Assembly: GCA_017474385.1 (NCBI GenBank)
Contig: JAFVHU010000025.1
Span: 1-64,000, forward strand
Length of the DNA stretch: 64,000 bases
From: Afipia sp.
GTDB taxonomy: Bacteria; Pseudomonadota; Alphaproteobacteria; Rhizobiales; Xanthobacteraceae
Reading direction: 5' to 3'
Under the pieces are notes generated by a model. The model searched no databases, had not been told where the DNA came from, and worked only from the letters and a program-made list of their open reading frames with translations. The position numbers were made by a program, and so were the translations under genes. How positions within the stretch are numbered: the stretch's first letter is position 1; each line of letters starts with the position of its first letter. Of this stretch, positions 11,950-25,968 are shown in pieces.

Positions 11950-12519
11950 ATGATCCGCGCGACGCAGGTTTGCCCGCCTGGCAGTTGGACCGAGGCCGCC
12001 GATACGGTGGTGCTCGGTTTCGACGATCGGCACCGGCGTCGCATGGCGATGACCGGCACGCGCGGACTGGAGTTCCTGCTGGACCTGAAGGAAGCTGTGG
12101 CGTTGCGCGGCGGCGATGCTTTGGTGCTGGAAGACGGACGGCTGGTCGAGGTCGTAGCGGCACCCGAACCACTGGTGGAAATTCGCGGCACCGATCCGCA
12201 TCACCTTGTCCGCGTCGCCTGGCATCTTGGCAACCGCCATCTGCCGACCCAGATCGTAGGTAAAGGCCTTCGAATCCGGCGCGATCATGTGATCGAGGAC
12301 ATGGTGCGGGGCCTCGGCGCGCGCGTTGTCGCCATCGAGGCGCCGTTCGATCCGGAAGGCGGGGCGTATTCCGGCGGCGGTCATGCGTCGCATGGTCACC
12401 ACGATCACGCGCATCATAATCATGGTCACCATAACCATGGCCACGCGCACGATGATGGTCACAGCAAGCATGACCACGATCATCACCACGGTCACACCCA
12501 TGCTCATGACCACAAATGA
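11950..12519 (+). CDS. ureE: Urease accessory nickel chaperone UreE with His-rich tail
   Basis: 189 residues. The first ~140 match UreE: peptide-binding N domain, then the metal domain with [13 protein letters not shown] and [13 protein letters not shown]. The last 47 residues (143-189) contain 23 histidines plus several Asp, a nickel-storage tail like that of Klebsiella-type UreE. UreE delivers Ni to the UreDFG-urease complex. The tail-coding DNA overlaps the start of ureF by 14 bp. Confidence 0.95.
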
Positions 12520-13231
12520 TCGCGGTCAGGATGGCATCGCGTCTGAGGCGGAGGAATCGGCTGCGCTCTTCCGGTTGATGACTTGGCTGTCGCCGTCGTT
12601 TCCGGTGGGGTCGTTCTCCTATTCCAGCGGCATCGAGTGGGCGGTTGAGGCCGGTGACATCGCCGACAGACAGACCTTGCAGGACTGGCTCGCCGCGATG
12701 CTGCTGGAGGGGGCCGGATTCTGCGATGGCCTGTTTCTGTGTCACGCCTGGCGCGCCGCCGAGGCAGGCGACGGGCGAACGCTGGGCGAGATCGCTGAAC
12801 TCGCAGCCGCATTCATGCCGTCGCGCGAACGGCATCTGGAAACCACGGCGCAGGGCCGTGCCTTTGTCGAGATCGCCCGATCGGCCTGGAATTGCGGCGC
12901 ACTGGATCTGCTGTCATCGCATGTGACGGGTCCGGTCACCTATCCGGTCGCCGTGGGCGTCCTCGCGGCGGGACACCGCATTTCGCTGGCATCGACGCTG
13001 CATGCGTTTCTCCATGCCACGACGTCGAACTGGATTTCGGCGGGTGTGCGTCTCATCCCGCTCGGACAGACCGATAGTCAGCATGTGCTCGCCGCGCTTG
13101 AAGGCGTGATCGCCGCGACGGCGGAAAAATCCTTGCAGGGTTCGCTGGACGATCTCGGCAGCGCGACGTTCCGCGCAGATCTCGCCAGCATGCGTCATGA
13201 AACGCAGTACACCAGGCTGTTCCGATCTTGA
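12506..13231 (+). CDS. ureF: Urease accessory protein UreF
   Basis: 241 residues from [18 protein letters not shown], with the UreF core [27 protein letters not shown] and later [15 protein letters not shown]. UreF bridges UreD and UreG and is thought to gate GTP use during nickel insertion. The start lies within the 3' end of ureE; ATG at 12500 is also possible and adds two residues. Upstream parts of the open frame only mirror the His-rich tail of ureE. Confidence 0.93.
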
Positions 13232-13244
13232 GAAAGTTGTCCCT

Positions 13245-13874
13245 ATGAGCACCAGCACGAACGGACCGTTGCGCGTCGGCATCGGCGGACCAGTTGGATC
13301 GGGCAAGACGGCCCTGATGGACCTGCTCTGTAAATCGATGCGCGAACGCTACGAGATCGCGGCCATCACCAACGATATCTACACCAAGTGGGATGCGGAG
13401 TTTCTGGTCCGCTCGGGATCGCTGACACCGGATCGCATTGCGGGCGTCGAGACCGGCGGTTGTCCGCATACGGCGATCCGCGAGGACGCTTCGATGAATC
13501 TTGCGGCGGTCGCCGACATGCGGGTCAAGTTCCCGGATCTCGATCTGGTGCTGATCGAATCCGGCGGCGACAATCTCGCGGCGACCTTCTCGCCGGAACT
13601 GGCTGATCTGACCATCTACGTGATCGACGTCGCGGCGGGCGACAAGATCCCGTCCAAGGGTGGCCCCGGCATCACGCGATCCGATCTGCTGGTGATCAAC
13701 AAGATCGATCTCGCGCCCCATGTCGGCGCATCGCTCGAGAAAATGGACACCGATGCGAAGCGCATGCGGGGTGAGCGGCCGTTCGTCATGACAAACCTGA
13801 AAAAGAGCGAAGGGCTCGACCGCATCATCCGCTTCATTGAAGCGAAGGGCGGTCTTCGGGCATCGGGTTCCTGA
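13245..13874 (+). CDS. ureG: Urease accessory GTPase UreG
   Basis: 209 residues starting [20 protein letters not shown]. It has a P-loop (residues 14-22), the metal-binding CPH motif at 73-75 in [30 protein letters not shown], and the guanine specificity motif NKID. UreG hydrolyses GTP to drive carbamylation and nickel insertion. It is the last gene of the urea island; spacing to ureF is 13 bp. Confidence 0.96.
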
Positions 13875-13942
13875 GAAGGTTAACTGACCGGACACCCCGC
13901 GTTTCCGCGCAGCGAACAAGTCCTGACGCATCGATATTTTCA

Positions 13943-13967
13943 GGAACGCTTGCGTGGCCGGGGTGTT
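13943..13967 (+). promoter_or_regulatory. Weak EcfG-type promoter match before the 37-residue ORF
   Basis: GGAAC (13943-13947), 16 bp, then TGTT (13964-13967), one base away from the EcfG consensus GGAAC-N16/17-CGTT. The -10 element ends only 8 bp before the ATG at 13976, so the transcript would be leaderless or nearly so. It may be chance. Confidence 0.3.
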
Positions 13968-13975
13968 AGCCCTGC

Positions 13976-14089
13976 ATGAAGCAACCCGTTTTCACAGCAC
14001 CCGGCAGAGACTATAGCGGCGTCTTTCTTGGCGCGATCCTGCTTGGAATCGTCGCTTTCGTCATTGGGCTGGCCCTGGTCGTGGCCTAG
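13976..14089 (+). CDS. Small single-helix membrane protein (37 residues)
   Basis: The predicted product starts MKQPVFTAPGRDYSGVF and continues as one hydrophobic helix (LGAILLGIVAFVIGLALVVA). Nothing in it identifies a family. It stands alone between ureG and the sensor kinase, preceded by an EcfG-like element. Codon use is ordinary for the region. It could be a small stress-linked membrane protein, but translation is unproven. Confidence 0.45.
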   Translation: MKQPVFTAPGRDYSGVFLGAILLGIVAFVIGLALVVA

Positions 14090-14169
14090 TCCATTGTCGT
14101 TCGCACCACTCTCCCGGGGGGCGGTGGCGGATTTACCATAAGCGCCGACGGGTATATTTTCCGGTCGCG

Positions 14170-14194
14170 GGAACCATCTGGCGATACTTACATT
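14170..14194 (+). promoter_or_regulatory. Weak EcfG-type promoter match before the sensor kinase
   Basis: GGAAC at 14170-14174, 16 bp, then CATT at 14191-14194 (consensus CGTT). The position, about 90-165 bp before the possible kinase starts, is sensible, but with one mismatch in a four-base element it is only suggestive. Confidence 0.3.
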
Positions 14195-14285
14195 AATCCA
14201 TTCGCGAGACATTCAGGCCGGGCCGGATTGCTCCAACGATCCGGCAGCATCAGAGCACCCATGATTATTAGTTCGGTATCTGCGT

Positions 14286-16013
14286 TTGATTGCCGTTTCC
14301 GCCAAAGCCGCATTGGTTGCCGGTGGTCGTTTTCATCCCCGCTTTTCGAGTAACTGCGTGCTCCGTCTCGGCTTCATCATCGGACTGATGGCGATCATCG
14401 GACTGGTCCTCTCCGGTCTCGCCGCCATGAAAGTGTATGATCAGGAACTGTCGATCGGCCGGAGCGACCTCGCGCGCTCGGTCGATACCCACGCAAGTCT
14501 CGTTCAGGAGCGCCTGAGTGAGCGCGAGTTGCTGGCGCGGGTTGCGGTCGGTCTGTTCCGGTCGCCCTCGCTTAACATGGCCAATGCATTGCAGCCGTTG
14601 CGGTCGTCGATCTATGCCTTCAAGACCGACTTCCTCGTCGCGAGCTGGGTGGCCCGCATTCCGCGCGCCGATTTCGGCCGGGCCCAGAACGAACTGAAGG
14701 CCGCCGGTTTTCCCAACCCGACAATCCGGAACGTCAATGACACGCCGCTCAATCCGGCGGCGGTGCCCGATCCGGCGACCGTCGTGATGGATGTCGAGCC
14801 GCAGAACGATGAAACCAAGTCATTTGTCGGCCGCACGCTGAACAATCATCCGGTGATCGCGCCGATGTTCAACCGTGCGGTAGAGGAGGACAGGCCGGTG
14901 TCGTCCGATCCCTTCGTGCTGCTGCGTGTCGGCGGCCCCATGGGCATCGTGCTGGCTTCGCCGGTACGAACGGATACGGGCTCCACCGTCGCAGGCTTCC
15001 TGACCATATCCTATCGGCTGGCGCCGTTGATGCTCGTCAACGACGAACTGTCCCTGTTCTCGGTGGCGCTGCGCGATCCACGAAATGCCTCGGATAATTT
15101 GACATCCGATGCGGATGGAAATGTCACGTCGGTTCCTCTGCAACTGGATGCCGACAATCCTCCTTTGCTGCGTGTTGTTTCCTTCGGCGCGCGGGACTGG
15201 ACGCTGATCTACTACGCGAGAACGAACGCGGCGACGCGCGCTCAGGAACTCGCGGGCATCGTCATGCTGATCGGTGCCGCACTGACCCTTATTTTCTGCG
15301 GCCTGTTTGGGTACGTGTCCTACAACAACATACGGCTCAGCCGGGAGATCCAGACCCGTATCGACTTCGAGCGAAGGCTCACAGCCGTCATCGACGAACT
15401 CAATCATCGGGTGAAGAACATTCTTGCGGTCATCCAGTCGATCGTGACCCGCACGATGCGTCACGGCGCCGACATCGACGTCGCGCGCGAGCTTCTGATT
15501 GGCCGGATTCACGCCATGTCGCATGTCGTGTCGCTGCTCAGCGAAAGCCAGTGGCAGGGTGTCAAACTCAAAGGACTGTTCGAGTCGCGCGCGATTCCCC
15601 ATGCGGACCGCATCGCGCTCACAGGACCGGACATCACCGTCAGTGCGCGCGCGGCGCAAAGCCTGTCGCTGCTGTTCTTTGAGCTGGCATCTCATGCGGA
15701 TGAGGGCCTGTCGCTGGTCGGCAAGCATCCGCATATTGTGGCCGGCTGGACGGTGTCGGATGGACCTGACGCCGTCTTCCATTTCCGCTGGGAAGAGTTC
15801 AACACCAGCGCGGCAACGCGCCGCGCCGACAGCGAGTTCGGTCTCGTGCTTCTGGACCGGGTCGCGCCTGAGGCGCTGGGCGGCACGTCGAAACGCTACT
15901 TCACGGATGTCAGCTACGTCTACGAACTCACGGCTCCGATGGTCACAGTGGTAGACGAGGCTGAAATGGACCGCACCGAGCGCATCGGTAAGCCGGTGAA
16001 GAAGAAGCGCTGA
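14286..16013 (+). CDS. CHASE-domain HWE-family sensor histidine kinase at the general stress locus
   Basis: A membrane kinase of up to 575 residues. It has a first helix (about 26-48), a periplasmic CHASE-like domain (about 60-315), a second helix (about 322-345), and an H-box ELNHRVKNILAVIQSIV with the phospho-acceptor His374. The ATP-binding part is altered: at 466-471 it reads ELASHA where family members have ELATNA, so the magnesium-binding Asn is replaced by His470. The frame opens at TTG (14286); GTG at 14358, just before the first helix, is an equally good start. HWE kinases near phyR usually phosphorylate PhyR, so this is a likely partner, but the N-box change leaves catalysis in doubt. 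Confidence 0.8.
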   Translation: MIAVSAKAALVAGGRFHPRFSSNCVLRLGFIIGLMAIIGLVLSGLAAMKVYDQELSIGRSDLARSVDTHASLVQERLSERELLARVAVGLFRSPSLNMANALQPLRSSIYAFKTDFLVASWVARIPRADFGRAQNELKAAGFPNPTIRNVNDTPLNPAAVPDPATVVMDVEPQNDETKSFVGRTLNNHPVIAPMFNRAVEEDRPVSSDPFVLLRVGGPMGIVLASPVRTDTGSTVAGFLTISYRLAPLMLVNDELSLFSVALRDPRNASDNLTSDADGNVTSVPLQLDADNPPLLRVVSFGARDWTLIYYARTNAATRAQELAGIVMLIGAALTLIFCGLFGYVSYNNIRLSREIQTRIDFERRLTAVIDELNHRVKNILAVIQSIVTRTMRHGADIDVARELLIGRIHAMSHVVSLLSESQWQGVKLKGLFESRAIPHADRIALTGPDITVSARAAQSLSLLFFELASHADEGLSLVGKHPHIVAGWTVSDGPDAVFHFRWEEFNTSAATRRADSEFGLVLLDRVAPEALGGTSKRYFTDVSYVYELTAPMVTVVDEAEMDRTERIGKPVKKKR

Positions 16014-16083
16014 TCCGGACTGGCAGAGGAACAATCTTTCCTGCGATGAATTGAGCAGCGAACGCTGTCACGCAAAGGAAAGT

Positions 16084-16170
16084 ATGATGGGACGATATCT
16101 GCTGTTGTGGTTTCTCGGGATTCCTATTCCCGTTCTGATCCTGATCTGGGCCTTTGGCGGCCTCAACTGA
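16084..16170 (+). CDS. Small hydrophobic protein (27-28 residues)
   Basis: The frame encodes MMGRYLLLWFLGIPIPVLIL followed by IWAFGGLN, a single hydrophobic helix with a Pro-Ile-Pro kink. AAAGGAA lies seven bases before the second ATG (16087), which is therefore the more likely start. Very similar tiny proteins are common in Bradyrhizobium relatives. It is followed directly by a strong bidirectional terminator, as expected of a real gene end. Function unknown. Confidence 0.6.
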   Translation: MMGRYLLLWFLGIPIPVLILIWAFGGLN

Positions 16171-16181
16171 TCGCAAACAAT

Positions 16182-16213
16182 AAAAAGCGGCCACCCCACG
16201 TGGCCGCTTTTTT
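16182..16213. terminator. Bidirectional terminator between the small gene and ecfG
   Basis: AAAAA, then GCGGCCAC pairing with GTGGCCGC around CCCAC, then six T. The A-run and T-run on either side let it serve both the plus-strand small gene and the minus-strand ecfG. Confidence 0.9.
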
Positions 16214-16237
16214 GATGCGTTGCGTTGAGGTGACGGG

Positions 16238-16786
16238 CTAGCCGCCGCCTCCGCCGATCACGGCGCGAATGGTATTGTCCGGTCCGAAGTCTTCCGCACC
16301 CTCGACGTAGAGCAAGGCGCTCAGCTTCGATCGGGCGCGATTGACGCGGCTCTTGATGGTGCCGACCGCGCATCCGCAGATCGCTGCGGCGTCCTCGTAA
16401 GAGAAGCCGGACGCGCCGACGAGAATAAGCGCCTCGCGCTGATCCTGAGGAAGCTTGTCGAGCGCGGTTCGAAACTCCTCGAACTCGAGATGCGATCCCT
16501 GAGCCGGCTGTGACTTCAGCGTCTTGGCATAGCTGCCATCGGCATCCTCGACCTCGCGCCGCCGCTTGCGATAGTCCGAGCGGAACAGATTGCGCAGGAT
16601 CGTGAACAGCCACGCTGGAAGATTTGATCCCGGCTGGAACGAATCGATGTGCGCAAGTGCGCGCAGCAGCGTTTCCTGCACGAGGTCGTCGGCGCGATCA
16701 GCATTGCCGCTCAGCGAAATAGCGAACGCACGCAGGCTCGGAACGGTAGCGAGAATATCGTCGCGAAGTGAGTCAGTGAGAGGCAT
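16238..16786 (-). CDS. ecfG: General stress response ECF sigma factor EcfG
   Basis: 182 residues with sigma region 2 (ADDLVQETLLRALAHIDSF, LPAWLFTILRNLFRSDYRKR) and region 4 (LDKLPQDQREALILVGASGFSYEDAAAICGC, GTIKSRVNRAR). This is the EcfG (ECF15) pattern. It directs RNA polymerase to GGAAC-N16/17-CGTT promoters under stress. It is held inactive by NepR, whose gene precedes it with a TAATG stop-start overlap. The Gly-rich C-terminus (VIGGGGG) is a mild oddity. Confidence 0.95.
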   Translation of the reverse strand: MPLTDSLRDDILATVPSLRAFAISLSGNADRADDLVQETLLRALAHIDSFQPGSNLPAWLFTILRNLFRSDYRKRRREVEDADGSYAKTLKSQPAQGSHLEFEEFRTALDKLPQDQREALILVGASGFSYEDAAAICGCAVGTIKSRVNRARSKLSALLYVEGAEDFGPDNTIRAVIGGGGG

Positions 16787-17004
16787 TAGTCCCTCCCATC
16801 TTTTGTCGGCTCTCCGGATATCTGTGAAGCCGCCTCTTGGGAATCAAGCTGACGAATCAGATCGGCAAAGCGATCGGGTACGCCTTGACGCACAACATCG
16901 TCATACATGGCGCGCAACTGATGTCCGATCCGTGATTGAATTTCGGAATTTAGCCCTCCCGGCTTTCCAGGTGGCCTGTTGGACGACGGCTTCGAATCTT
17001 TCAT
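16786..17004 (-). CDS. nepR: Anti-sigma factor NepR
   Basis: 72 residues with the NepR core NSEIQSRIGHQLRAMYDDVV followed by VPDRFADLIRQLD. NepR binds EcfG; when PhyR is phosphorylated its sigma-like domain takes NepR away. The gene is co-transcribed with ecfG (1-bp overlap) and divergent from phyR, the classical arrangement. Its own promoter matches the EcfG consensus, giving positive feedback. Confidence 0.95.
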   Translation of the reverse strand: MKDSKPSSNRPPGKPGGLNSEIQSRIGHQLRAMYDDVVRQGVPDRFADLIRQLDSQEAASQISGEPTKDGRD

Positions 17005-17098
17005 TGGCTTTATCCGTTTTTCCCCATGAGCTAACTAGCTAGAAACACGGGAGTTTTTGTCGCCCGGCGAAGCCTTTAGCCCGCCTGATCCAGTCATA

Positions 17099-17123
17099 AA
17101 CGGGGGGGTGAGCGGAAAGTTCC
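17099..17123 (-). promoter_or_regulatory. EcfG-type promoter for nepR-ecfG
   Basis: On the minus strand GGAAC (17123-17119), 16 bp, then CGTT (17102-17099): an exact match to GGAAC-N16/17-CGTT. It lies 95 bp before the nepR start and explains autoregulation of the locus. Confidence 0.85.
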
Positions 17124-17131
17124 GACCAGGA

Positions 17132-17156
17132 GGAACTTTTCTCCGATTTATGCGTA
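17132..17156 (+). promoter_or_regulatory. EcfG-type promoter for phyR (first candidate)
   Basis: GGAAC (17132-17136), 16 bp, then CGTA (17153-17156), one mismatch from CGTT. Its -35 is only 8 bp from the -35 of the nepR promoter on the other strand, so the two promoters are back to back. Confidence 0.6.
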
Positions 17157-17172
17157 GATAGTCCGAAGCGGG

Positions 17173-17199
17173 GGAACCGGCGGTCGCTTCAATCGCGTT
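17173..17199 (+). promoter_or_regulatory. EcfG-type promoter for phyR (second candidate)
   Basis: GGAAC (17173-17177) and CGTT (17196-17199) are exact, but the spacer is 18 bp rather than 16-17. It lies 40 bp before the phyR start. Either this or the site at 17132 probably drives phyR. Confidence 0.5.
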
Positions 17200-17238
17200 G
17201 CCGGTCCAAACCTGAATTGATGATCGATTGGAGGGGGT

Positions 17239-18039
17239 ATGTCTCGTTCTCAGCTCGTTGCTGAACATTTGCCACTGTTGCGGCGGTATGCCCGCGCGTT
17301 GACCGGAAGCCAGGCATCGGGAGATGCCTATGTTGCAGCCATGCTTGAGGCCTTGCTGCAAGACCCCTCGCTGCTGGAAGAAAAATTCGGGCCGCGCGTC
17401 GGATTGTTCAGGCTTTTCACACAGATCTGGAATTCGGTGTCTCTGAACGAGAGCACCGACAAGGGTCCCGCGCAGGCCTCTGAACAGCGGCTGTCGAATC
17501 TCACGGCGCTTCCACGCCAGGCTTTTCTGCTGCTTTCGCTCGAAGGTTTCTCGGAGGAGGAAGTCGCTCACATCCTCAATACGGAAATCACACATGTTCG
17601 TGAACTGGCGGATACCGCCGGCCGCGAACTGGCCGCAGAAATCGCGACCGATGTGCTGATCATCGAAGATGAGACGTTCATCGCGATGGATCTGGAGAGC
17701 CTGGTCAGGAATCTCGGACACAACGTCATTGGCGTGGCACGGACCCATACCGATGCCGTTGCGCTGGCGAAGTCGAAAAGGCCGGGTCTGATCCTGGCTG
17801 ACATCCAGCTCGCCGACGGCAGTTCGGGGCTCGATGCGGTGAACGAACTGCTCAAGACGTTCGAGGTGCCGGTGGTGTTCATCACCGCATATCCCGAGCG
17901 TTTTCTCACCGGTGAGCGGCCCGAACCCGCCTTCCTGATCTCGAAGCCGTTCCAGCCGGCCATGGTGTCCGCCGTGGCAAGTCAGGCGCTGTTCTTTCAG
18001 CGTAACTCGCGCAGCCGGCCCAGGGCGGCGGTTTCCTGA
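17239..18039 (+). CDS. phyR: Response regulator / anti-anti-sigma factor PhyR
   Basis: 266 residues. The N-terminal ~130 form a sigma-like domain (LVAEHLPLLRRYARALTGSQASGDAYV, and ALPRQAFLLLSLEGFSEEEVAHIL). The C-terminal half is a receiver domain with the acidic pair in IIEDETF, the phospho-acceptor Asp188 in ILADIQL, a Thr/Ala switch in VFITAYP and the lysine in ISKPFQP. Phosphorylation exposes the sigma-like domain, which sequesters NepR and frees EcfG. A GGAGGGGG ribosome site precedes the ATG. Confidence 0.96.
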   Translation: MSRSQLVAEHLPLLRRYARALTGSQASGDAYVAAMLEALLQDPSLLEEKFGPRVGLFRLFTQIWNSVSLNESTDKGPAQASEQRLSNLTALPRQAFLLLSLEGFSEEEVAHILNTEITHVRELADTAGRELAAEIATDVLIIEDETFIAMDLESLVRNLGHNVIGVARTHTDAVALAKSKRPGLILADIQLADGSSGLDAVNELLKTFEVPVVFITAYPERFLTGERPEPAFLISKPFQPAMVSAVASQALFFQRNSRSRPRAAVS

Positions 18040-18064
18040 GATATCAGGCACGAGGCACCGCAAT

Positions 18065-18105
18065 AAAAAGCCGGAACGCGGGACATCCCGTGTTCCGGCT
18101 TTTTT
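18065..18105. terminator. Terminator after phyR
   Basis: AGCCGGAACGCGGGA (18069-18083) pairs with TCCCGTGTTCCGGCT (18086-18100) with one G-T pair, followed by a run of six T and preceded by A5. Confidence 0.9.
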
Positions 18106-18172
18106 GTGATCGCATTCCAATACGCAAAAAAGAAAGGGGTGCGGCCGGCATCACCACGACCACACCCCCGTG

Positions 18173-18207
18173 AGCCGGTCGATTAGGGGCAGGGGGATTG
18201 ACCGGCT
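18173..18207. other. G-rich-loop hairpin in the phyR-18357 spacer
   Basis: AGCCGGTC pairs perfectly with GACCGGCT across a 19-base loop containing GGGG and GGGGG. No coding frame is seen between the phyR terminator and the promoter at 18284; this hairpin is the only other structure. Confidence 0.4.
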
Positions 18208-18283
18208 TCTGGAATGACGCCCGCCGCGCGAAAGTGTTCCCGGTCACCCAATTTTTTTTCACCGGCCGCGCGCTTTTGAACCC

Positions 18284-18309
18284 GGAACGAAAGCCGGGCG
18301 GACCACGTT
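18284..18309 (+). promoter_or_regulatory. EcfG-type promoter for the 18357 gene
   Basis: GGAAC (18284-18288), 17 bp, CGTT (18306-18309): an exact consensus match, 48 bp before the start codon of the following gene. Confidence 0.8.
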
Positions 18310-18356
18310 GAATCCGAAAGCCGCGATCATGCGGCATGGCAACGTAGGGGCGGCAG

Positions 18357-18797
18357 ATGTCTTACATGGCTTCTGGAACTCTCGGAGTGGTGGCCGCGGT
18401 GCTGGCACTGGGTGCCGTGCATCTTGAAGTATCGGCAGGAAACGATTTGCTTGGTCCGGCTCAGCGCGGCGATGCGACGACAACGATGCCGGCCGGTCCT
18501 GCTGGTGAAGTGATAGCAATCAATGTCGATCGCTCGGCCAAGGGCGATCGCGATCCGGCGGTGGCCGCTGTAGGCGGCGTGACGATTTCCTTCAAGGTGC
18601 CGGGCATGACCGACTCGTCGGTTATGGTTCGGATGCCTGCGGGTGAAGACGCCAACGCCCAGCGCAAGGCTCCACCATCAACGGTGGGTTCAGGCAAGGG
18701 ATCGTCCGCAGGCACGCGTCCTGTGGCGTGCGAACCGGTTGTGAGCGTTCTGACAGCCGTCGCCAAGCAGCTTGCCCCCGGGCGCTGTATCACCTGA
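18357..18797 (+). CDS. Hypothetical exported protein, probable EcfG target
   Basis: 146 residues. The first ~27 (MSYMASGTLGVVAAVLALGA and on) look like a signal or anchor helix. The rest is Gly/Ala/Pro-rich with GGVTISFKVPGMTDSSVMVRM and ends with two cysteines (VACEPVVS and APGRCIT). The family was not recognised. An ATG at 18366 is an alternative start. Isolated by terminators on both sides and placed next to phyR with an exact EcfG promoter, it is likely an envelope stress protein. Confidence 0.7.
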   Translation: MSYMASGTLGVVAAVLALGAVHLEVSAGNDLLGPAQRGDATTTMPAGPAGEVIAINVDRSAKGDRDPAVAAVGGVTISFKVPGMTDSSVMVRMPAGEDANAQRKAPPSTVGSGKGSSAGTRPVACEPVVSVLTAVAKQLAPGRCIT

Positions 18798-18817
18798 TCG
18801 GTCGCGGATTTCGGCCA

Positions 18818-18848
18818 TAAAAAAGAGCGCCAGATGGCGCTCTTTTTG
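18818..18848. terminator. Bidirectional terminator between convergent genes
   Basis: AGAGCGCC and GGCGCTCT pair around AGAT, with an A-run before and a T-run after. It serves the plus-strand 18357 gene and the minus-strand 18859 gene. Confidence 0.9.
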
Positions 18849-18858
18849 GTGACGAAAC

Positions 18859-19299
18859 TCAGGGTTGCTCCTCGGGTTCGTCCTCTGCGGCCTGGCGGCG
18901 ATTGGCCATCAGGCCCAGCGCAATTCCGCCGATGGCGACGAGTGGAATGATACGTTTGATTCCGATCGTGCGGACGATCTGCAAACCGGCGGCGAGCACC
19001 ATTGGATCGCTGAGCGCGGTCTGCATGGTGGATTTCGCCGCTTCAACAGGCCTCTTCCTGATCTGCCGCTTGCGCACGGCATAGCTGATCGCCGCAAGCA
19101 CGGTCGCCACGAAGAACACCCCGGCCCCCGCGAAGCAGGCTTGCAGCAGGCCGTATTTCTGAAGCACGAAGACGAAGGCGGCCGCGCACAGGAACGCCGT
19201 TGTGATGAAGAGGCAAACCGCAACCGCGATCGCCAGCGATGTCAGCCGCAATGCGCTGCCGGTGCTCTCCCGAAAGTCATCCATCAACTTCTGAAACAT
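18859..19299 (-). CDS. Membrane protein of YqjE/phage-holin-like type
   Basis: 146 residues from MFQKLMDDFRESTGSALRLT. It has two adjacent membrane helices (about residues 20-70), a basic segment RKRQIRKRP, and a further hydrophobic stretch (IIPLVAIGGIALGLMA) before an acidic tail. The order DUF883 gene then this gene resembles the yqjD-yqjE pair of enterobacteria, which supports a YqjE-like role at the membrane. A TTG at 19314 would add five residues. It follows DUF883 by 86 bp and is likely in the same stress-controlled unit. Confidence 0.65.
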   Translation of the reverse strand: MFQKLMDDFRESTGSALRLTSLAIAVAVCLFITTAFLCAAAFVFVLQKYGLLQACFAGAGVFFVATVLAAISYAVRKRQIRKRPVEAAKSTMQTALSDPMVLAAGLQIVRTIGIKRIIPLVAIGGIALGLMANRRQAAEDEPEEQP

Positions 19300-19385
19300 C
19301 GAAAATCCGATCAATATCCGTCAACGAAAGCGCGCATCGGCACTGCCGGCGGGGAGGCCGGCCGTGCCAGGAAAAATTGCTGCTA

Positions 19386-19757
19386 TCAACGGCGCCACGT
19401 CACGCCGATCAAAAAGCCGAGGCCGACGGCAAGGCCAACAGCGGCCAGCGGGCGCTGGGTGATCGCGTCTTCAAGGGATTCCTCGAGCGAGCCGGCATAA
19501 TCCTGTGCCGCGTCCAGGGCTTCGCTGCCGCGCTTGCCGACGTCGGACATCACGGAATCCACGTCGGCACGTGCCTGCTTGTAGGCCCGTCTGGCCTGCT
19601 TGCGGGCGTCGCCCTTGAGCGCTTCGAGAACATCGGAGATCTGGTCTGCGAGTGCTGAGATATCGTTTTTCACGGCGTCTACATCCTTCTGAAGGCGTTC
19701 ATAAGTGGATTTATCCGTCATGTTCTTCATTGCGTCTTCACCGCCGGTGCTCGACAT
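19386..19757 (-). CDS. DUF883 (ElaB/YqjD-type) membrane-anchored protein
   Basis: 123 residues: a long charged amphipathic helix (YERLQKDVDAVKNDISALADQI and following), then a C-terminal membrane anchor RPLAAVGLAVGLGFLIGVTWRR, the ElaB/YqjD/DUF883 plan. Such proteins bind the inner membrane at the C-terminus and can bind ribosomes through the N-terminal part in stationary phase. An exact EcfG promoter lies 35 bp upstream of the start. Confidence 0.85.
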   Translation of the reverse strand: MSSTGGEDAMKNMTDKSTYERLQKDVDAVKNDISALADQISDVLEALKGDARKQARRAYKQARADVDSVMSDVGKRGSEALDAAQDYAGSLEESLEDAITQRPLAAVGLAVGLGFLIGVTWRR

Positions 19758-19791
19758 CTAAAACTCCCGATAGCCGCATGCTCCGTGCGAA

Positions 19792-19816
19792 AACGCATGG
19801 TTCTTGCGAAGGTTCC
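19792..19816 (-). promoter_or_regulatory. EcfG-type promoter for the DUF883 unit
   Basis: On the minus strand GGAAC (19816-19812), 16 bp, CGTT (19795-19792), an exact match, placed between the AI-2E gene and the DUF883 start. Confidence 0.85.
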
Positions 19817-19822
19817 ATCGCT

Positions 19823-20944
19823 TTACTGGTCCGGTAACTGGGTGTCCTTGACCTGCATCAAGTGCTCCTTGAGGACGAGCCCGACGATCAGGATCGGCGA
19901 CGACAGAAACGCGCCCATCGGTCCCCACAGCCACGTCCAGAAAGCGAGGGTGATGAAGACCGCGAGCGCATTCAGCGCCAGCCGCCGGCCGATGATCGAC
20001 GGTGTCACGAAATGCCCCTCGATGAAGGCGACAACGGCAAAGCCGCCGGCGGCGGCCAATCCGCCGGTCAGGGTCGATGACGTGATGACGCCCACGGCGG
20101 CGAGCACGACGAACATCACGATCGGACCGATAATCGGAATGTAATTCAGCGTCGCCGCGAGCGCGCCGAGACCCGCAGGATTGGGCATTCCGGTGGCGGC
20201 GCAGATCAGTCCGGTGGCGATGCCGAGCCCCATGTTAATCAGCGTGACCGTGAGGAGATAGCCGCCGAGATTGCTTTCGATCTCGTTCAGGATACGCAAG
20301 ACGCGCAGCCGCTCGTCACGATCGGTGAAATTCAGGATCAGCGCTCGGCGCAGGTCCGGCCAGCTTGCAATGAAGAGCACGAGAACCGCGAAGAACAGCA
20401 GGATCTCGGTGAACGTCGGAGACAGAAATTCCAGCGTCGGCTGGACCCATTCGATCTTCGGGAGGGAAAAAGTTGACTCCCCCGGCACAGCCGTTGCGCC
20501 GAACAGCCCCTGCAATTGATGCCAGAACGCAATCGGCCGATCGAAGACGTGAAACTTGTCTTTTAGCGAGGGACCAAGTTCGGGAAGCCGTGTGGACCAT
20601 TCCATGACCGGCGCGGAGATCAGCGCGATCATGAAGGCGAGCCCGGCGAAGGTCGCGGACACGATAAGGATCGCCGACACCGATCGGGGGATACCGTATT
20701 TTTCCAGAAATTTTGCGGCGGGGGACAGCATTGTTCCGATCACCACTGCGGTGACCGTGGGCAGGAAGAAGGCCCGCCCCACGTACAGAACGGCGATGAC
20801 GCTGATGATCAGCAATGCGACCAGAGAAAACGAAACAATATCTGCGCGGCGAATGGTCGGAGGCCGCTGTTCTTTGCGCTCGTCCGGCGGTGCTGCCACC
20901 GCCGGATCTTTTGACTCGCGCACCTCTCGGCGCACGTTGGACAC
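19823..20944 (-). CDS. AI-2E family transporter (PerM-like permease)
   Basis: 373 residues starting at GTG. A short cytoplasmic N-terminus (SNVRREVRESKDPAVAAPPDERKEQRPP in parts) precedes about eight helices. The C-terminal half shows the family marks PNPAGLGALAATLNYIPIIGP and EGHFVTPSIIGRRLALNALAVF. The family includes TqsA/YdgG and PerM exporters; the substrate is unknown. It begins 2 bp after the DUF3309 gene and so shares its stress promoter. Confidence 0.88.
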   Translation of the reverse strand: MSNVRREVRESKDPAVAAPPDERKEQRPPTIRRADIVSFSLVALLIISVIAVLYVGRAFFLPTVTAVVIGTMLSPAAKFLEKYGIPRSVSAILIVSATFAGLAFMIALISAPVMEWSTRLPELGPSLKDKFHVFDRPIAFWHQLQGLFGATAVPGESTFSLPKIEWVQPTLEFLSPTFTEILLFFAVLVLFIASWPDLRRALILNFTDRDERLRVLRILNEIESNLGGYLLTVTLINMGLGIATGLICAATGMPNPAGLGALAATLNYIPIIGPIVMFVVLAAVGVITSSTLTGGLAAAGGFAVVAFIEGHFVTPSIIGRRLALNALAVFITLAFWTWLWGPMGAFLSSPILIVGLVLKEHLMQVKDTQLPDQ

Positions 20945-20946
20945 CT

Positions 20947-21105
20947 TCAGATTCTGCCGAGCAGCAGAAGAATGACCACGATCACCAGGATGGTGCCGAC
21001 GATTCCTGACGGGCCGTAACCCCAGTTAGCGCTATGGCCCCAGCTTGGAATGACGCCGAGCAGGATCAGGATCAAAATAATAATGAGAATGGTGCCAAGA
21101 GACAT
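20947..21105 (-). CDS. DUF3309 small membrane protein
   Basis: 52 residues, MSLGTILIIILILILLGVIP then SWGHSANWGYGPSGIVGT and a second hydrophobic stretch ending in LLLLGRI. This is the DUF3309 pattern of two helices around a Trp/Gly-rich turn. The start at 21105 has GAGGAC upstream; the longer frame has no support. Function unknown. It is first in a two-gene unit with the AI-2E transporter. Confidence 0.85.
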   Translation of the reverse strand: MSLGTILIIILILILLGVIPSWGHSANWGYGPSGIVGTILVIVVILLLLGRI

Positions 21106-21162
21106 GACTAAAGTCCTCGATTTGCGCCGGAGCCCACTGTCATGCACCGGCTTCAGACCGCT

Positions 21163-21187
21163 AACCGGCAGCCAGTCCCAATGTTCC
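21163..21187 (-). promoter_or_regulatory. EcfG-like promoter for DUF3309-AI-2E
   Basis: On the minus strand GGAAC (21187-21183), 16 bp, GGTT (21166-21163), one mismatch from CGTT; 58 bp before the start codon and divergent from the promoter at 21252. Confidence 0.55.
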
Positions 21188-21251
21188 GTCGCAGCGGTTT
21201 GAACCTGCCGTCCGCCGGTTCTCACAAATCATTTCGGGACGAGGTGCGCTT

Positions 21252-21277
21252 GGAACCAAAAGCCGTAAGCCCGCGTT
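21252..21277 (+). promoter_or_regulatory. EcfG-type promoter for the L,D-transpeptidase gene
   Basis: GGAAC (21252-21256), 17 bp, CGTT (21274-21277), an exact match, 52 bp upstream of the start codon. Confidence 0.8.
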
Positions 21278-21328
21278 CGCTCTGTATCCGCATCACACGA
21301 TGCCATCGCAGAACTTGAGGGCAGGCCC

Positions 21329-22156
21329 ATGACACATTCGGCGCAGGCGAACTCAGTGTCTCGAAATTCCATTTTCCGGATATTCACCACGTCCCTTCGA
21401 TCCGCCCGCGGCCTCACCGTCGCGGCGATGGCATTCCCTCTCGTTCTGGCGACGCCGGCGGTGTCTCAAACGCTTGGATATGCTGGCGTTTACCAAGGAT
21501 CGTCCCAAAGGACGTTCTGGTCGGATCAGCAGTCGCTGCCGTCGCCTGGTGTGACTGAGGACGACAGCGCCACGGTTCTTCCCGAGCGGCTTCAGCGCAA
21601 GATCGTCTCTTTCGAAAGCCGCGAGGCGCCCGGCACCATCGTGATCGATACCGGCAACACCACGCTCTACTATGTGCTGGGGCAGGGCCGCGCCATCCGC
21701 TACGGCGTCGGCGTTGGCCGCGAGGGCTTCACCTGGTCTGGCGTCCAGACCGTATCGCGCAAGGCGGCATGGCCGGACTGGCATCCGCCGGCGGAGATGA
21801 TTGCCCGCCAGCCGTATCTGCCGCGCTTCGTCGCCGGTGGCCCCGGAAATCCGCTGGGCGCGGTGGCGATGTATCTCGGCTCCAGCTCTTACCGCATTCA
21901 CGGCACCAACGATCCGTCCACCATCGGAAAGTTCGTCTCCAGCGGCTGCATCCGTCTGACCAACGAGGACGTGCAGGATCTGGCCAGCCGCGTCACGATC
22001 GGTACCAAGGTGATCGTGCTGCCGAAGAGCAGCCGGCTTGAAGCGGGTGTAACGAAAGAGAGAGCTGCGCCGAGAGCCGGCGCGCTCAGACCGCTTCGCG
22101 TCAGCGACTCGGCGCCGCTGCCGTCACATAACGTCAAATTGTCCGGATTATATTGA
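21329..22156 (+). CDS. L,D-transpeptidase (YkuD domain), probable EcfG target
   Basis: 275 residues with a membrane or signal segment (residues ~25-48, ending TPAVSQ). The YkuD domain spans about 105-230: IVIDTGNTTLYYVLG, WPDWHPPAEMI, then the catalytic histidine in YRIHGTND and the catalytic cysteine in SSGCIRLTNEDVQDL. It forms 3-3 peptidoglycan crosslinks or attaches proteins to the wall. A GAGGG site precedes the ATG. A basic C-terminal tail of ~45 residues follows the domain. Confidence 0.92.
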   Translation: MTHSAQANSVSRNSIFRIFTTSLRSARGLTVAAMAFPLVLATPAVSQTLGYAGVYQGSSQRTFWSDQQSLPSPGVTEDDSATVLPERLQRKIVSFESREAPGTIVIDTGNTTLYYVLGQGRAIRYGVGVGREGFTWSGVQTVSRKAAWPDWHPPAEMIARQPYLPRFVAGGPGNPLGAVAMYLGSSSYRIHGTNDPSTIGKFVSSGCIRLTNEDVQDLASRVTIGTKVIVLPKSSRLEAGVTKERAAPRAGALRPLRVSDSAPLPSHNVKLSGLY

Positions 22157-22206
22157 GTGAAAATTTGAGCATGCAGTGTAGCGGATGGACCAAGGCTGAA
22201 GAGGGC

Positions 22207-22866
22207 ATGATGCGTCAGGTAAAGTTGTATTTCCGATCGATGGCGGCCGCCGTCGCGATTGGGCTTGTCGCAGTGTCAGTGGGTGCATCGTCAGCGCATG
22301 CGCGTGATTTCTTCTCCTCGTTCTTCGGCGGATTTGGCGGCGCTCCCGCGCCGTCCGTGTCGGTGCCGTTTGCATCGCCTGATTTCGGGGACGCGCAGCC
22401 GAACAGGCGGGTCAATATCTATGGCAGCAGCTACAGCGGCGGCTCGACGACGTATTGCGTGCGGACCTGCGATGGCCGTTATTTCCCTGTTGCCGCATCT
22501 GACGGGCAGACCAAGGCGGAAGCCTGCAAGAGCTTCTGCCCGGCGACCGAGACCAGAATCTATCACGGCGGCTCGATCGACAATGCGTCGAGCGATACAG
22601 GAAAATCGTATTCCGATTTGCCGAATGCATTCCGCTATCGCAAGGAGCTGGTCACCGGCTGCACGTGCAATGGCAAGGACCCTGCGGGACTGGCCTCGGT
22701 CAAGATCGAAGACGATCCCACCCTGCGCAAGGGCGACATCGTCGCCGGTGCGGATGGTCTGATGGTTGCGGGAAGCAGCCGCCGCAGCGCTGCGCTGAAT
22801 TTTACGCCGGCGCCGAAATCCGTTCGGGCGAAATTCGAACGGCTGCCTGTCGTCGCTGCGCAATAG
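22207..22866 (+). CDS. DUF2865 exported protein
   Basis: 219 residues from MMRQVKLYFRSMAAAVAIGL with a signal peptide ending near SSAHA. The mature protein has YCVRTCDGRYFPV, KAEACKSFCPATETRIYHGG and TGCTCNGKDPAGLA, with several cysteines that could form disulfides; this is the DUF2865 pattern. The upstream frame to 22153 (TTG) has no support, and GAGGG fits the ATGs at 22207/22210. Function unknown; periplasmic location inferred. Confidence 0.85.
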   Translation: MMRQVKLYFRSMAAAVAIGLVAVSVGASSAHARDFFSSFFGGFGGAPAPSVSVPFASPDFGDAQPNRRVNIYGSSYSGGSTTYCVRTCDGRYFPVAASDGQTKAEACKSFCPATETRIYHGGSIDNASSDTGKSYSDLPNAFRYRKELVTGCTCNGKDPAGLASVKIEDDPTLRKGDIVAGADGLMVAGSSRRSAALNFTPAPKSVRAKFERLPVVAAQ

Positions 22867-22885
22867 CAACACGGCGATGTTCGTT

Positions 22886-22921
22886 GTTCCCTAGAGGGAA
22901 CCAAACCTCAGCGGAATTGTT
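22886..22921 (+). promoter_or_regulatory. Palindrome and EcfG-like promoter before the 53-residue gene
   Basis: GGAAC (22897-22901), 16 bp, TGTT (22918-22921) is one mismatch from consensus. The -35 is also the right arm of a palindrome, GTTCCCT-AG-AGGGAAC (22886-22901), so a hairpin at the end of the DUF2865 transcript is an alternative reading. Confidence 0.45.
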
Positions 22922-22984
22922 GACGTGCAGGGATACGGGACACGGCTCTCGCATCCAGCAGAACTGATTTCATGAGGGGTTACC

Positions 22985-23146
22985 ATGTCTTTGCTTATCA
23001 GCGCGCTGATCACATTCCTTGTCGTCATTCTTGTTCTTTATCTCGTCAATCTGTTGCCAATCGACGGCCGCGCCAAGCAGATCGTCCGCATCATTGTCAT
23101 CATCATTGGCATCATTTCGCTTTTGAGAGTTCTCGCGGTGTTTTAG
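22985..23146 (+). CDS. Small two-helix membrane protein (53 residues, Thivi_2564-like)
   Basis: MSLLISALITFLVVILVLYL, then VNLLPIDGRAKQIVR and a second helix IIVIIIGIISLLRVLAVF. The two-helix plan with a short DGRAKQ-type turn resembles the Thivi_2564 family of small proteins. It ends 30 bp before a bidirectional terminator shared with csbD. Function unknown; a stress-induced membrane protein is likely from context. Confidence 0.7.
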   Translation: MSLLISALITFLVVILVLYLVNLLPIDGRAKQIVRIIVIIIGIISLLRVLAVF

Positions 23147-23175
23147 TTCTCACGGCACAGAGTTCGCGCCAACAA

Positions 23176-23202
23176 AAAGCCCCGGCGGAATGCCGGGGCT
23201 TT
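23176..23202. terminator. Bidirectional terminator between the small gene and csbD
   Basis: AAAGCCCCGGC pairs perfectly with GCCGGGGCTTT around GGAAT; the A and T ends suit both strands. Confidence 0.9.
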
Positions 23203-23218
23203 CGTCAATCTGGTGCGA

Positions 23219-23425
23219 TTACTTTAACGTCTTGAACCAGTCGTCCACGTCCTTGTGGATCTGATCCTTGGCGAAGCCGTAGCGCTGCTGGAGCTTGCCT
23301 TCGAGCTGCTCGCGGCGGCCCTCGATGACATCGAGATCGTCATCGGTCAGCTTGCCCCATTTTTCCTTGGCGGCGCCCTTGAACTGCTTCCAGTTACCTT
23401 CAACGCGGTTCCAATCCATCGTCAT
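23219..23425 (-). CDS. csbD: CsbD family stress protein
   Basis: 68 residues, MTMDWNRVEGNWKQFKGAAK followed by EKWGKLTDDDLDVIEGRREQLEGKLQQRYG. This is the canonical CsbD sequence pattern. CsbD proteins are small, charged and induced by general stress sigma factors (sigma-B in Bacillus); the molecular role is not known. An exact EcfG promoter precedes it. Confidence 0.95.
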   Translation of the reverse strand: MTMDWNRVEGNWKQFKGAAKEKWGKLTDDDLDVIEGRREQLEGKLQQRYGFAKDQIHKDVDDWFKTLK

Positions 23426-23448
23426 CCTCCAGTGTTGGAATGATCGAT

Positions 23449-23473
23449 AACGATGCGATGGCGTGAACGTTCC
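23449..23473 (-). promoter_or_regulatory. EcfG-type promoter for csbD
   Basis: On the minus strand GGAAC (23473-23469), 16 bp, CGTT (23452-23449), an exact match, 24 bp before the csbD start. Confidence 0.85.
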
Positions 23474-23545
23474 TGCCGGAACTGCGGCGAAGTGGCGTCA
23501 TTCTGTTGAGAGAACGGCGGCAACATTTTCAAAAGGCTTAAGGCA

Positions 23546-23573
23546 AAACCCCCGGCGCAAGCGCCGGGGGTTT
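23546..23573 (-). terminator. Strong hairpin after malate synthase
   Basis: AAACCCCCGGCGC and GCGCCGGGGGTTT form a perfect 13-bp stem with a two-base gap (a four-base loop in practice). It lies 28 bp after the glcB stop. The T-run on the minus strand is short. Confidence 0.75.
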
Positions 23574-23600
23574 CATCGTCACGTCAATTAGTCGAGCGGA

Positions 23601-25763
23601 TCAGCCCGCTGCTTTCGCTTCCTTGCGGCGCGCATGCAGGATGAACTCGGTGTAGCCGTTCGGCTGCTCGCGGCCCTTGAAGATCAGGTCGCAGGCGGCC
23701 TGGAATGCAAGGCCGTCGAATTTCGGCGCCATAGGCTTGTAGAGCGAGTCACCGGCATTCTGCTTGTCCACGATCGCCGCCATGCGCTTCAGCGATTCCA
23801 TTACTTGGTTCCTGGTGACGACGCCCTGATGCAGCCAGTTGGCGAGATGCTGCGCGGAAATGCGCAGCGTGGCGCGGTCTTCCATCAGGCCGACATCGTG
23901 AATGTCCGGCACCTTGGAGCAGCCGACGCCCTGATCGATCCAGCGCACGACGTAACCGAGGATGCCCTGGCAGTTGTTGTCGATTTCCTGCTTGACGTCG
24001 TCGGGCGCCCAGTTCGACTGCGAAACCGGAATCGTCAGAATGTCGGAGAGCTTCGCTTTCGGGCGGCTCTTCAGTTCCTTCTGCCGCGCACCGACATCGA
24101 CCTGATGATAGTGCAGGGCGTGCAGCGTTGCAGCGGTCGGCGATGGCACCCATGCGGTGGAAGCGCCGGCCTGCGGATGCGCGATCTTCTGCGCCAGCAT
24201 GTCGGCCATCTTGTCGGGAGCTGCCCACATGCCCTTGCCGACCTGGGCGTGACCGGGCAAGCCGTTGGCGAGACCCGTGTCCACGTTCCAGTCCTCGTAG
24301 GCCTTGATCCAGGGCTGCGCCTTCATGTCGTTCTTGCGGATCATCGGGCCGGCCTCCATCGACGTATGGATTTCGTCGCCGGTACGGTCGAGGAAGCCCG
24401 TGTTGATGAAGCAGATGCGCTGCGCGGCATTCTGGATGCAGGCCTGGAGGTTCACCGTGGTGCGGCGCTCCTCGTCCATGATGCCGACCTTCATAGTGTT
24501 GGCGGCCATCGACAGTATCTTCTCGACGCGGCCGAAGATATCGACCGTGAGCGCGACCTCATCCGGGCCGTGCATCTTCGGCTTGACGATGTAGACCGAG
24601 CCCTTGCGGCTGTTCTTCAGCTTGGTCTTGCCCTTCAGGTCGTGGAGCGCGAGCAGGCCGGTGACGGCGGCATCGAGGATGCCTTCCGGAATTTCCTCAC
24701 CCGAGCTGTCGAGTACAGCGTCGGTGAACATGTGATGGCCGACGTTGCGGATCAGCATCATGCTGCGGCCGTGCAGGGTCACCTTGCCCTTCTCGTCCGC
24801 TGCGGTGTAGGTGCGGTCGGCATTGAGCGCGCGGGTCAGTGTCTTGCCGCCCTTCTCGAAGTCGGCCGACAGCGTGCCGTTCATTAGGCCGAGCACGTTG
24901 CGGTAGACCAGAACCTTGTCCTCGGCGTCGACGGCGGCCACCGAGTCTTCCATGTCGAGAATGGTCGAGACCGCCGATTCCAGGATCATGTCGGCGACGC
25001 CGGCAGGATCGTCCTTGCCGATGGTGTTGTTGCGGTTGATCTGCACGTCGATGTGCATGCCGTTGTTGACCAGCAGGATCGAGGTCGGGGAGGCGGCATC
25101 GCCCTGATAGCCGACGAGCTGGGCCTTGTTCTTGAGCGCAGTGGCGTTGCCGCTCTTGAGCTTGGCGGCGAGCTGGCCGTGCTCGATGTGATAGGCGGTA
25201 ACGTCGCTGTGGTTGCCGGTCGCGAGCGGCACGGCCTGATCGAGAAACGCCTTGGCCTTGGCGATCACCTTGTCGCCGCGCGCCTTGTTGTAGCCCTTGC
25301 CGCCCTCGCTTGGGTCGTGCGGGATGGCGTCGGTGCCATAGAGCGCGTCATAGAGGCTGCCCCAGCGCGCGTTCGCGGCATTCAGCGAATAGCGCGCATT
25401 GGTGAGCGGCACGACAAGCTGCGGCCCGAACATGGAGGCGAGTTCTTCATCGACGTTCGCGGTCTGCACTTCCTTGGCGGCTGGCTCCGGCAGCAGGTAG
25501 CCGATCTCCTTGAGGAAGGCGGTGTAGGCATTCATGTCGAACGCCTTGCCCTTGTTCGCCTTGTGCCAGCCGTCGATCTTGGCCTGCAACGCATCGCGGG
25601 TGGCGAGCAGTTCGCGGGTCCGTGGCGCGAGATCCTTGACGATTCCGGCAAGGCCCGCCCAGAAGGCGTCGGCCGAAACGCCGGTGCCGGCGGTTGCTTC
25701 CTTGGCAATGAAGTCGAACAGAACAGGAGCGATCTTCAGACCGCTGGCGTCGATACGTTTCAT
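23601..25763 (-). CDS. glcB: Malate synthase G
   Basis: 720 residues from [20 protein letters not shown], the usual length for isoform G. Landmarks include [46 protein letters not shown] and [16 protein letters not shown]. It condenses glyoxylate with acetyl-CoA to malate, the second step of the glyoxylate route for growth on C2 compounds. The long open frame upstream of 25763 lacks family similarity and crosses a palindrome, so it was dropped. No isocitrate lyase is in the window. Confidence 0.96.
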
Positions 25764-25777
25764 GATAAATCCTACAG

Positions 25778-25803: not shown

Positions 25804-25968
25804 GAGGCCTCAGGTAAGGTGATGATGGCCACGGAAAGTGGCGTCGTGCGGAAGGTTTTAGCGCCAAAGGCGGGCCTATGAGAAGGCCCTTCCCTCGTCC
25901 GAAAGGCGTATACCACCCTGTCCGCAGGGGCCGTCAACCAGCGCATTTCGCAGGCAGTTCTGCCGCGG

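Follow-up and report, generated by a model that had tools for sequence, protein, structure and literature searches.

EcfG-type sites precede the inferred transcription units of a phyR-containing block in Afipia sp. and include a recurrent mirrored -35 box

In Alphaproteobacteria, the sigma factor EcfG, the anti-sigma factor NepR, and the regulator PhyR form a partner switch, and both this switch and the autoregulation of EcfG have been established elsewhere (PMC4814048, PMC8103513; statements resting on papers cited here refer to the accessible portions of their texts). In these loci, assigned to the extracytoplasmic function (ECF) group ECF15, phyR is divergent from nepR-ecfG, both are preceded by EcfG promoters, and a kinase gene is located nearby. 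We analyzed a stretch of 64,000 nucleotides from Afipia sp. (contig JAFVHU010000025.1, positions 1 to 64,000; hereafter the window), which corresponds to contig C89 of a draft genome of 4.48 Mb in 162 contigs and displays the same arrangement. In contrast to the described ECF15 loci, EcfG-type sites continue here through further units on both sides, and nepR and phyR have their -35 boxes at a nearly fixed distance from each other, a feature that the accessible portions of PMC4814048 and PMC8103513 do not mention.

The EcfG regulon of Sphingopyxis granuli TFA also includes nepR-ecfG, phyR, an HWE kinase beside phyR, and csbD, and combines a rigid -35 box with a flexible -10 box (PMC7083833). 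In that organism, csbD (SGRAN_3063) is far by locus number from the regulators (SGRAN_1162-1165), whereas csbD and other genes are linked to them in the window; in addition, the -10 variants recur here gene by gene across species. In the phyR-tcrY locus of Rhizobium etli, as in the window, the region flanking the phyR-adjacent kinase contains an EcfG promoter (PMC3892343). The R. etli element ReC64 is a noncoding RNA (PMC3892343), whereas an Rfam scan of positions 12000-26000 of the window returned no family at the gathering score.

The block of about 10 kb between ureG and glcB very probably consists of about 11 transcription units, each located behind an EcfG-type promoter (GGAAC-N16/17-CGTT), with nepR-ecfG, phyR, and the HWE kinase inside. 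The predicted promoters are the following.

13943..13967, plus strand: EcfG-type promoter of a 37-aa open reading frame (ORF); -10 TGTT, one mismatch; 8 bp before the ORF
14170..14194, plus strand: EcfG-type promoter of the HWE kinase; -10 CATT, one mismatch
16028..16052, plus strand: degenerate EcfG-type site before a 28-aa ORF; -10 AATT, two mismatches
17099..17123, minus strand: EcfG-type promoter of nepR-ecfG; exact
17132..17156, plus strand: EcfG-type promoter of phyR; -10 CGTA, one mismatch
18284..18309, plus strand: EcfG-type promoter of a 146-aa gene; exact
19792..19816, minus strand: EcfG-type promoter of DUF883; exact
21163..21187, minus strand: EcfG-type promoter of DUF3309-AI-2E; -10 GGTT, one mismatch
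21252..21277, plus strand: EcfG-type promoter of YkuD; exact
22897..22921, plus strand: EcfG-type promoter of the Thivi_2564 gene; -10 TGTT, one mismatch
23449..23473, minus strand: EcfG-type promoter of csbD; exact

A first-pass annotation of this DNA had listed the five exact and five one-mismatch sites as correctly oriented elements preceding start codons. All ten are present at these coordinates and strands, with 8 to 94 bp between the -10 box and the start codon (TTG 14286 being taken for the kinase, the start of which is not certain). All transcription units inferred from ureG to glcB thus have an EcfG-type site, one of them degenerate; the genes without a promoter of their own (ecfG, the holin-X-like gene, and the DUF2865 gene) are each located behind another gene of the same direction. 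The phyR leader additionally contains an exact GGAAC-N18-CGTT at 17173-17199, possibly a second phyR promoter, and N16 or N17 versions are found nearer to phyR than the CGTA site in four Afipia relatives.

In the intergenic DNA of the block (1835 bp), 5 sites are exact, and the count rises to 12 when one mismatch in the -10 box is allowed; two of the 12 precede no gene (18216, minus strand, and 23478, plus strand). In 1000 dinucleotide shuffles of the same DNA, the corresponding means were 0.042 and 0.45 and the maxima 2 and 4. The test was weaker for the whole window, which has a sixth exact match inside a called gene (37698, plus strand): 6 exact matches were compared to a shuffle mean of 1.27, and 6 were reached in 1/100 shuffles. 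At the scale of the genome, raw counts speak for an origin of the matches by chance or as a by-product of base composition, since the exact pattern was found 81 times and the reversed pattern 103 times, and raw counts in five relatives were likewise without excess. Raw density was rejected as a test because it is uninformative until intergenic sites are separated. Among the 81 exact matches, 46 were intergenic and 35 were in called genes; with four control patterns, 9/31 matches in this sequence were intergenic. The ORFs were called with a home-made program, which missed nepR in the window, so that the number of exact sites located at most 300 bp from an ORF (37/81) is likely to be an undercount.

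Five of the 46 intergenic exact sites are found within 6.4 kb (17099-23473). In intergenic DNA, the sites listed by the first-pass annotation are dense beyond chance, although raw counts show no excess. They do not form the sole group in the genome, since four intergenic exact sites occur in 3.4 kb among small ORFs on another contig (C74:70523-73874; L111 4524-7875). Two of these four have no called gene within 300 bp, and one precedes a small membrane-like ORF (L111 7928-8092).

The same block was compared in the 80 best of 364 relatives, using phyR-centred loci with flanks of at most 10 kb. These loci contained 175 exact sites, versus 20, 17, 19, 48, 18, and 11 for six control patterns. The preference for spacer length was sharp, with 133 sites for 16 bp and 42 for 17 bp, and 5, 7, 5, and 13 for 14, 15, 18, and 19 bp, respectively. 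The sites were conserved amid diverged flanks. Together with the shuffles, these results leave almost no room for an explanation by chance or base composition.

Sites were then counted upstream of each gene, excluding matches that start past residue 15 or have less than 250 bp upstream (200 bp for the -10 variants described below), which left 13 loci for the kinase. Exact sites were present at DUF883 in 40/40 loci, at YkuD in 12/13 (8/8 in Afipia), at CsbD in 12/14 (9/9 in Afipia), and at Thivi_2564 in 21/28. No exact site was found upstream of ecfG (0/78) or the holin-X-like gene (0/42), nor at the block edges (ureG, 0/57; glcB, 0/21), and two were found at DUF2865 (2/24). Sites with at most one mismatch were found at Thivi_2564 in 28/28 loci (7/28 with a control spacer of 22/23), the 37-aa ORF in 15/15 (control, 1/15), AI-2E in 24/24 (8/24), the kinase in 9/13 (0/13), phyR in 59/79 (16/79; exact, 4/79), nepR in 57/78 (31/78; exact, 11/78 overall and 9/9 in Afipia), and DUF3309 in 6/6 (4/6). 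Two aspects of these counts weigh against the promoter assignment: the one-mismatch criterion is loose, as the control spacer satisfies it in the proportions given above for nepR, phyR, and DUF3309 and in 17/40 loci for DUF883, and exact sites at the 146-aa gene, present in 10/10 Afipia loci, are few overall (16/60). The first-pass annotation had proposed a comparison of the block in related genomes, and this comparison showed that the sites are conserved in position and that the one-mismatch forms recur gene by gene. Because of this recurrence, most of the one-mismatch forms are probably real promoters.

The -35 box GGAAC is rigid and the -10 box graded: CGTT predominates at effectors, while CGTA, CATT, TGTT, and GGTT recur at phyR, the kinase, and some other genes. 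Each locus, the window included, contributed one row to this analysis. CGTT was found upstream of DUF883 (41/41 rows), YkuD (13/14), CsbD (13/15), and Thivi_2564 (21/29). The variants were CGTA (53/80) and AGTA (18/80) at phyR; CATT (43), AATT (19), and CGTT (12) in the 79 rows for nepR; CATT at the kinase (9/14); TGTT at the 37-aa ORF (11/16); [CA]ATT at the 28-aa ORF (18/24); and GGTT (11) and CGTT (8) in the 25 rows for AI-2E. In the 49 phyR spacers with a single GGAAC, the letters C, G, T, and A of the -10 box were kept at 0.88, 1.00, 1.00, and 0.98, and the four letters following GGAAC at 0.92-1.00, versus 0.39-0.82 for the other twelve spacer letters. In S. granuli, in which the -35 box is also rigid and the -10 box flexible, exchanging CGTT for CATT or TGTT reduces in vitro transcription (PMC7083833); by analogy, promoters with CATT or TGTT are probably weaker. 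Two points count against this grading. The variant retained in each row was the tetramer nearest to CGTT after GGAAC-N16/17, a choice that favors CGTT, and GGTT may be as good as CGTT, as the consensus of M. extorquens admits C/GGTT (PMC4814048).

Real promoters could be read by another ECF sigma factor. The genome encodes an EcfG-like paralogue (C77:3465-3917; L211), 40% identical to the EcfG of the window, which could share its promoters, and EcfG paralogues of other organisms recognize similar promoters (PMC7083833, PMC4814048); both facts count against an assignment to the EcfG of the window. The 3453 bp examined at the paralogue contained no site, even with one -10 mismatch allowed. The motif GGAAC-N16-CGTT is, however, the published EcfG motif (PMC7083833, PMC3892343), and the block holds the canonical nepR-ecfG-phyR set, with an HWE kinase containing an HRXXN box nearby. 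Recognition of these promoters by another sigma factor is accordingly improbable. Under EcfG control, and following the pathway established elsewhere, the kinase side would phosphorylate PhyR under stress, PhyR would remove NepR from EcfG, and the freed EcfG would transcribe its own operon, phyR, the kinase gene, and the effector genes.

At two positions of the block, the -35 box GGAAC is accompanied by its mirror image.

17119..17136, no strand: back-to-back -35 boxes GTTCC-N8-GGAAC common to the nepR and phyR promoters; 80/80 spacers
22886..22901, no strand: mirror element GTTCC-N6-GGAAC on the -35 box of the Thivi_2564 promoter; 28/28 loci tested

Between nepR and phyR, GTTCC faced GGAAC in 80/80 spacers, one from the window and 79 from relatives (nepR is missing from one locus). 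The spacers ranged from 208 to 329 bp in length, and the gap between the boxes was 8 bp in 56, 9 bp in 14, and 10 bp in 10 of them. In a separate set of 30 family loci, which includes the window and partly shares lineages with the first set, all had the pair at 6-10 bp. Such closeness is not general, because the sites of the other divergent pair, DUF3309/AI-2E versus YkuD, were separated by 33-64 bp in 31/32 rows (the last row lacks one site). The pair was less regular in other families: 10 of 25 loci had a detected divergent nepR and 5/10 of these were paired (6-8 bp), a point against the proposed explanation; one further locus had the pair with no nepR detected. In 31 spacers (L043, L045, L050, and others), a second GGAAC is found about 12 bp further on; in the rows inspected, the second GGAAC bears the phyR -10 box, and the inner one persists with no -10 box to match it.

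With -35 boxes 8-10 bp apart, two polymerases would, judging from the geometry, be unable to use both promoters at once. The nepR-ecfG and phyR promoters would then compete, and this exclusion would couple the output of NepR-EcfG to that of PhyR.

At the Thivi_2564 gene, the gap was 6 bp in 26 and 7 bp in 2 of the 28 loci, and the letters further upstream were kept at 0.29-0.64. No recurrent antisense -10 box was found at N16/17 in these 28 loci, the commonest tetramer occurring 3 times. Its distance to the DUF2865 match ranged from 15 to 3331 bp. A role as terminator of DUF2865 is disfavored, since the element accompanies the Thivi_2564 gene even in loci whose DUF2865 match lies as far as 3.3 kb away. 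In this setting, the mirrored box would hold a second holoenzyme or a dimeric regulator. The mirror was absent from DUF883 (0/40), AI-2E (0/24), YkuD (0/13), the 37-aa ORF (0/15), and the kinase (0/9), and infrequent at the 146-aa gene (1/20), the 28-aa ORF (2/11), and CsbD (3/14). The csbD promoter of the window has a mirrored box, GTTCC-N4-GGAAC (23469-23482), together with a CATT form on the plus strand (23478-23502) with no gene behind it. For Thivi_2564 genes outside the 80 loci, three from one related genus (L246, L248, and L249) have GTTGC-N6-GGAAC, one letter off, and six (L251-L254, L258, and L259) have a full CGTT site upstream and no mirror; these genes argue against generality.

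Elsewhere in the Afipia sp. genome, GTTCC was the commonest of the 1024 pentamers in the 15 bp that precede the 46 intergenic exact sites (7/46, two of them in the window; runners-up, 6; mean, 0.7), and occurred at none of the 35 in-gene sites. Of four further pairs found outside the window, two have no divergent neighbor and precede a heme-oxygenase-like gene and a sensor-kinase operon that includes an HWE kinase; the other two precede a Dps-like and a Crp-like gene (all named by reading translations). The sensor-kinase operon (L118 3780-6950, contig C27) comprises a sensor kinase, a response regulator, and a kinase that reads as HWE-type (HRVGN), behind an exact site with mirror, and a genome of the same genus (G025) has a similar match. 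In 61 family genomes, GTTCC-N4-10-GGAAC-N16/17-CGTT was found 195 times, part of these matches being the nepR-phyR spacer itself, versus 51 times for the reversed form, and the direct-repeat form 46 versus 66 times. The gap was 6 bp in 19/60 of the listed family matches measured, which are a non-random sample. Class-wide, the mirrored form with N5-7 had matches in 22/144 genomes and no excess (30 listed versus about 45 control matches, counted by hand), in a weak test, as PhyR was found in only 24/144 of these genomes. Literature searches returned no paper that we recognized, from its accessible portions, as describing the mirrored pair.

GTTCC-N6-10-GGAAC might instead be the site of a dimeric regulator overlapping the -35 box, with no back-to-back polymerases. 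In favor of this reading, the Thivi_2564 pair is present in all 28 loci tested, devoid of a recurrent antisense -10 box, and at a variable distance from DUF2865. Retention of the inner GGAAC in the 31 spacers with two copies and the two pairs of the genome lacking a divergent neighbor point in the same direction. However, there is no candidate protein, both arms are EcfG -35 boxes, the gap varies among sites (4-10), and the class-wide search gave fewer matches than its control. On balance, a dimeric regulator as the general explanation is rather unlikely. Tentatively, and with somewhat greater weight, the mirror-image -35 box (GTTCC located 4-10 bp, mostly 6 bp, upstream of GGAAC) may be a control element in its own right on a subset of the EcfG promoters of the family. 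It would act by mutual exclusion at nepR/phyR, setting the NepR-EcfG to PhyR ratio. At Thivi_2564 and certain further stress genes, where no divergent promoter is evident, it would act through a dimeric regulator or a second holoenzyme.

Gene order and orientation from phyR to glcB were kept in 43/43 loci holding at least 5 of 11 genes, and the clustering looks like conserved synteny, that is, an old syntenic unit. The kinase was located left of phyR in 66/75 loci with at least 3 kb on that side. Among 59 loci with at least 3 kb to the left and at least 9 kb to the right of phyR, 33 had the kinase together with DUF883; the kinase was present without DUF883 in 17, DUF883 without the kinase in 2, and both were missing in 7. 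A rival history is accretion, in which genes would first collect at the regulator locus and later gain EcfG promoters. The distance from phyR to DUF883, 1461 to 9990 bp in 42 loci, reaches values in some relatives that fit such gathering. Genes foreign to the block, in contrast, seldom had an exact site: the numbers were 8/341 for non-block genes right of phyR, 139/597 for block genes, and 0/451 for genes left of the kinase. Most of the 341 non-block genes (320) come from loci in which glcB was not seen and only 21 are bounded by glcB; 4 of the 8 sites come from one locus, and a scrambled pattern matched 3 of the 320.

Three genomes of one related genus, probably Bradyrhizobium, contain the kinase, holin-X-like, DUF883, AI-2E, YkuD, DUF2865, Thivi_2564, and glcB genes together, with CsbD in two. 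No match to ecfG, nepR, or phyR was found in these three block stretches of 20 kb. Their exact sites number 5, 4, and 4, with one site of the third stretch located beyond glcB. In G024, the only one of these genomes in which it was located, phyR lies on the contig of the block at a distance of about 1.9 Mb. Since the block keeps its sites without the three regulatory genes, its linkage to the regulator is dispensable. Accretion is thus very unlikely. The regulator is embedded in its own regulon in the window, as the first-pass annotation put it, and this is not a necessity, given the three genomes in which the block stands without ecfG-nepR-phyR.

Fifteen genes are located between ureG (end, 13874) and the malate synthase G gene glcB (from 23601), both named by reading translations.

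13976..14089, plus strand: 37-aa ORF; C-terminal half hydrophobic; family searches without match
14286..16013, plus strand: CHASE-HWE histidine kinase (PF07536, PF03924; HRVKN, an HRXXN box, read in the translation)
16084..16170, plus strand: hydrophobic 28-aa ORF; no family; tblastn matches in part of the relatives
16238..16786, minus strand: ecfG, ECF sigma factor (family search; matched in 78/80 loci)
16786..17004, minus strand: nepR, anti-sigma factor, adjoining ecfG (PF18557, 63.3 bits versus a cut-off of 25.7)
17239..18039, plus strand: phyR, sigma-like domain and receiver (PF22029, PF22233, PF00072)
18357..18797, plus strand: 146-aa protein with hydrophobic N-terminus; family searches without match
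18859..19299, minus strand: holin-X-like membrane protein (sub-threshold holin-X match); behind DUF883, no site of its own
19386..19757, minus strand: DUF883/ElaB-like protein (sub-threshold matches)
19823..20944, minus strand: AI-2E family transporter (PF01594); behind DUF3309
20947..21105, minus strand: DUF3309 small protein (PF11752)
21329..22156, plus strand: L,D-transpeptidase, YkuD (PF03734)
22207..22866, plus strand: DUF2865 protein (PF11064); behind YkuD, no site of its own
22985..23146, plus strand: Thivi_2564 family membrane protein, 53 aa (NF041949, 56.6 bits versus a cut-off of 33)
23219..23425, minus strand: CsbD-like protein (PF05532)

PhyR matched PDB 4qic, named PhyR, with an E value of 1.1e-81, and its nearest named match was PhyR of Afipia sp. 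OHSU_II-C1 (97% identity); a search of the PDB with NepR gave a single weak match, to an antibody chain. The DUF883 and holin-X matches were under curated cut-offs, as were the NCBIfam matches for DUF883 and CsbD; CsbD passes in Pfam. The description of the block as envelope-centred is unproven, as it rests largely on families of unknown function and on the sub-threshold DUF883 and holin-X matches; the EcfG-type promoters themselves are supported. In the urease cluster, two tandem related ORFs of ~100 aa (11344-11939), located between ureC and a His-rich ORF, look like antibiotic-biosynthesis-monooxygenase-type proteins from their translations alone.

The first-pass annotation was right in substance, with an outcome that a specialist would largely have expected. 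Three results extend it: the recurrent grading of the -10 boxes, a block that does not depend on linkage to the regulator, and, most of all, the mirrored -35 box. One locus offers about 11 testable promoters of the alphaproteobacterial stress response. Component stoichiometry of the switch is thought to matter (PMC4814048), and a functional mirrored box would give this switch a further level of control in cis.

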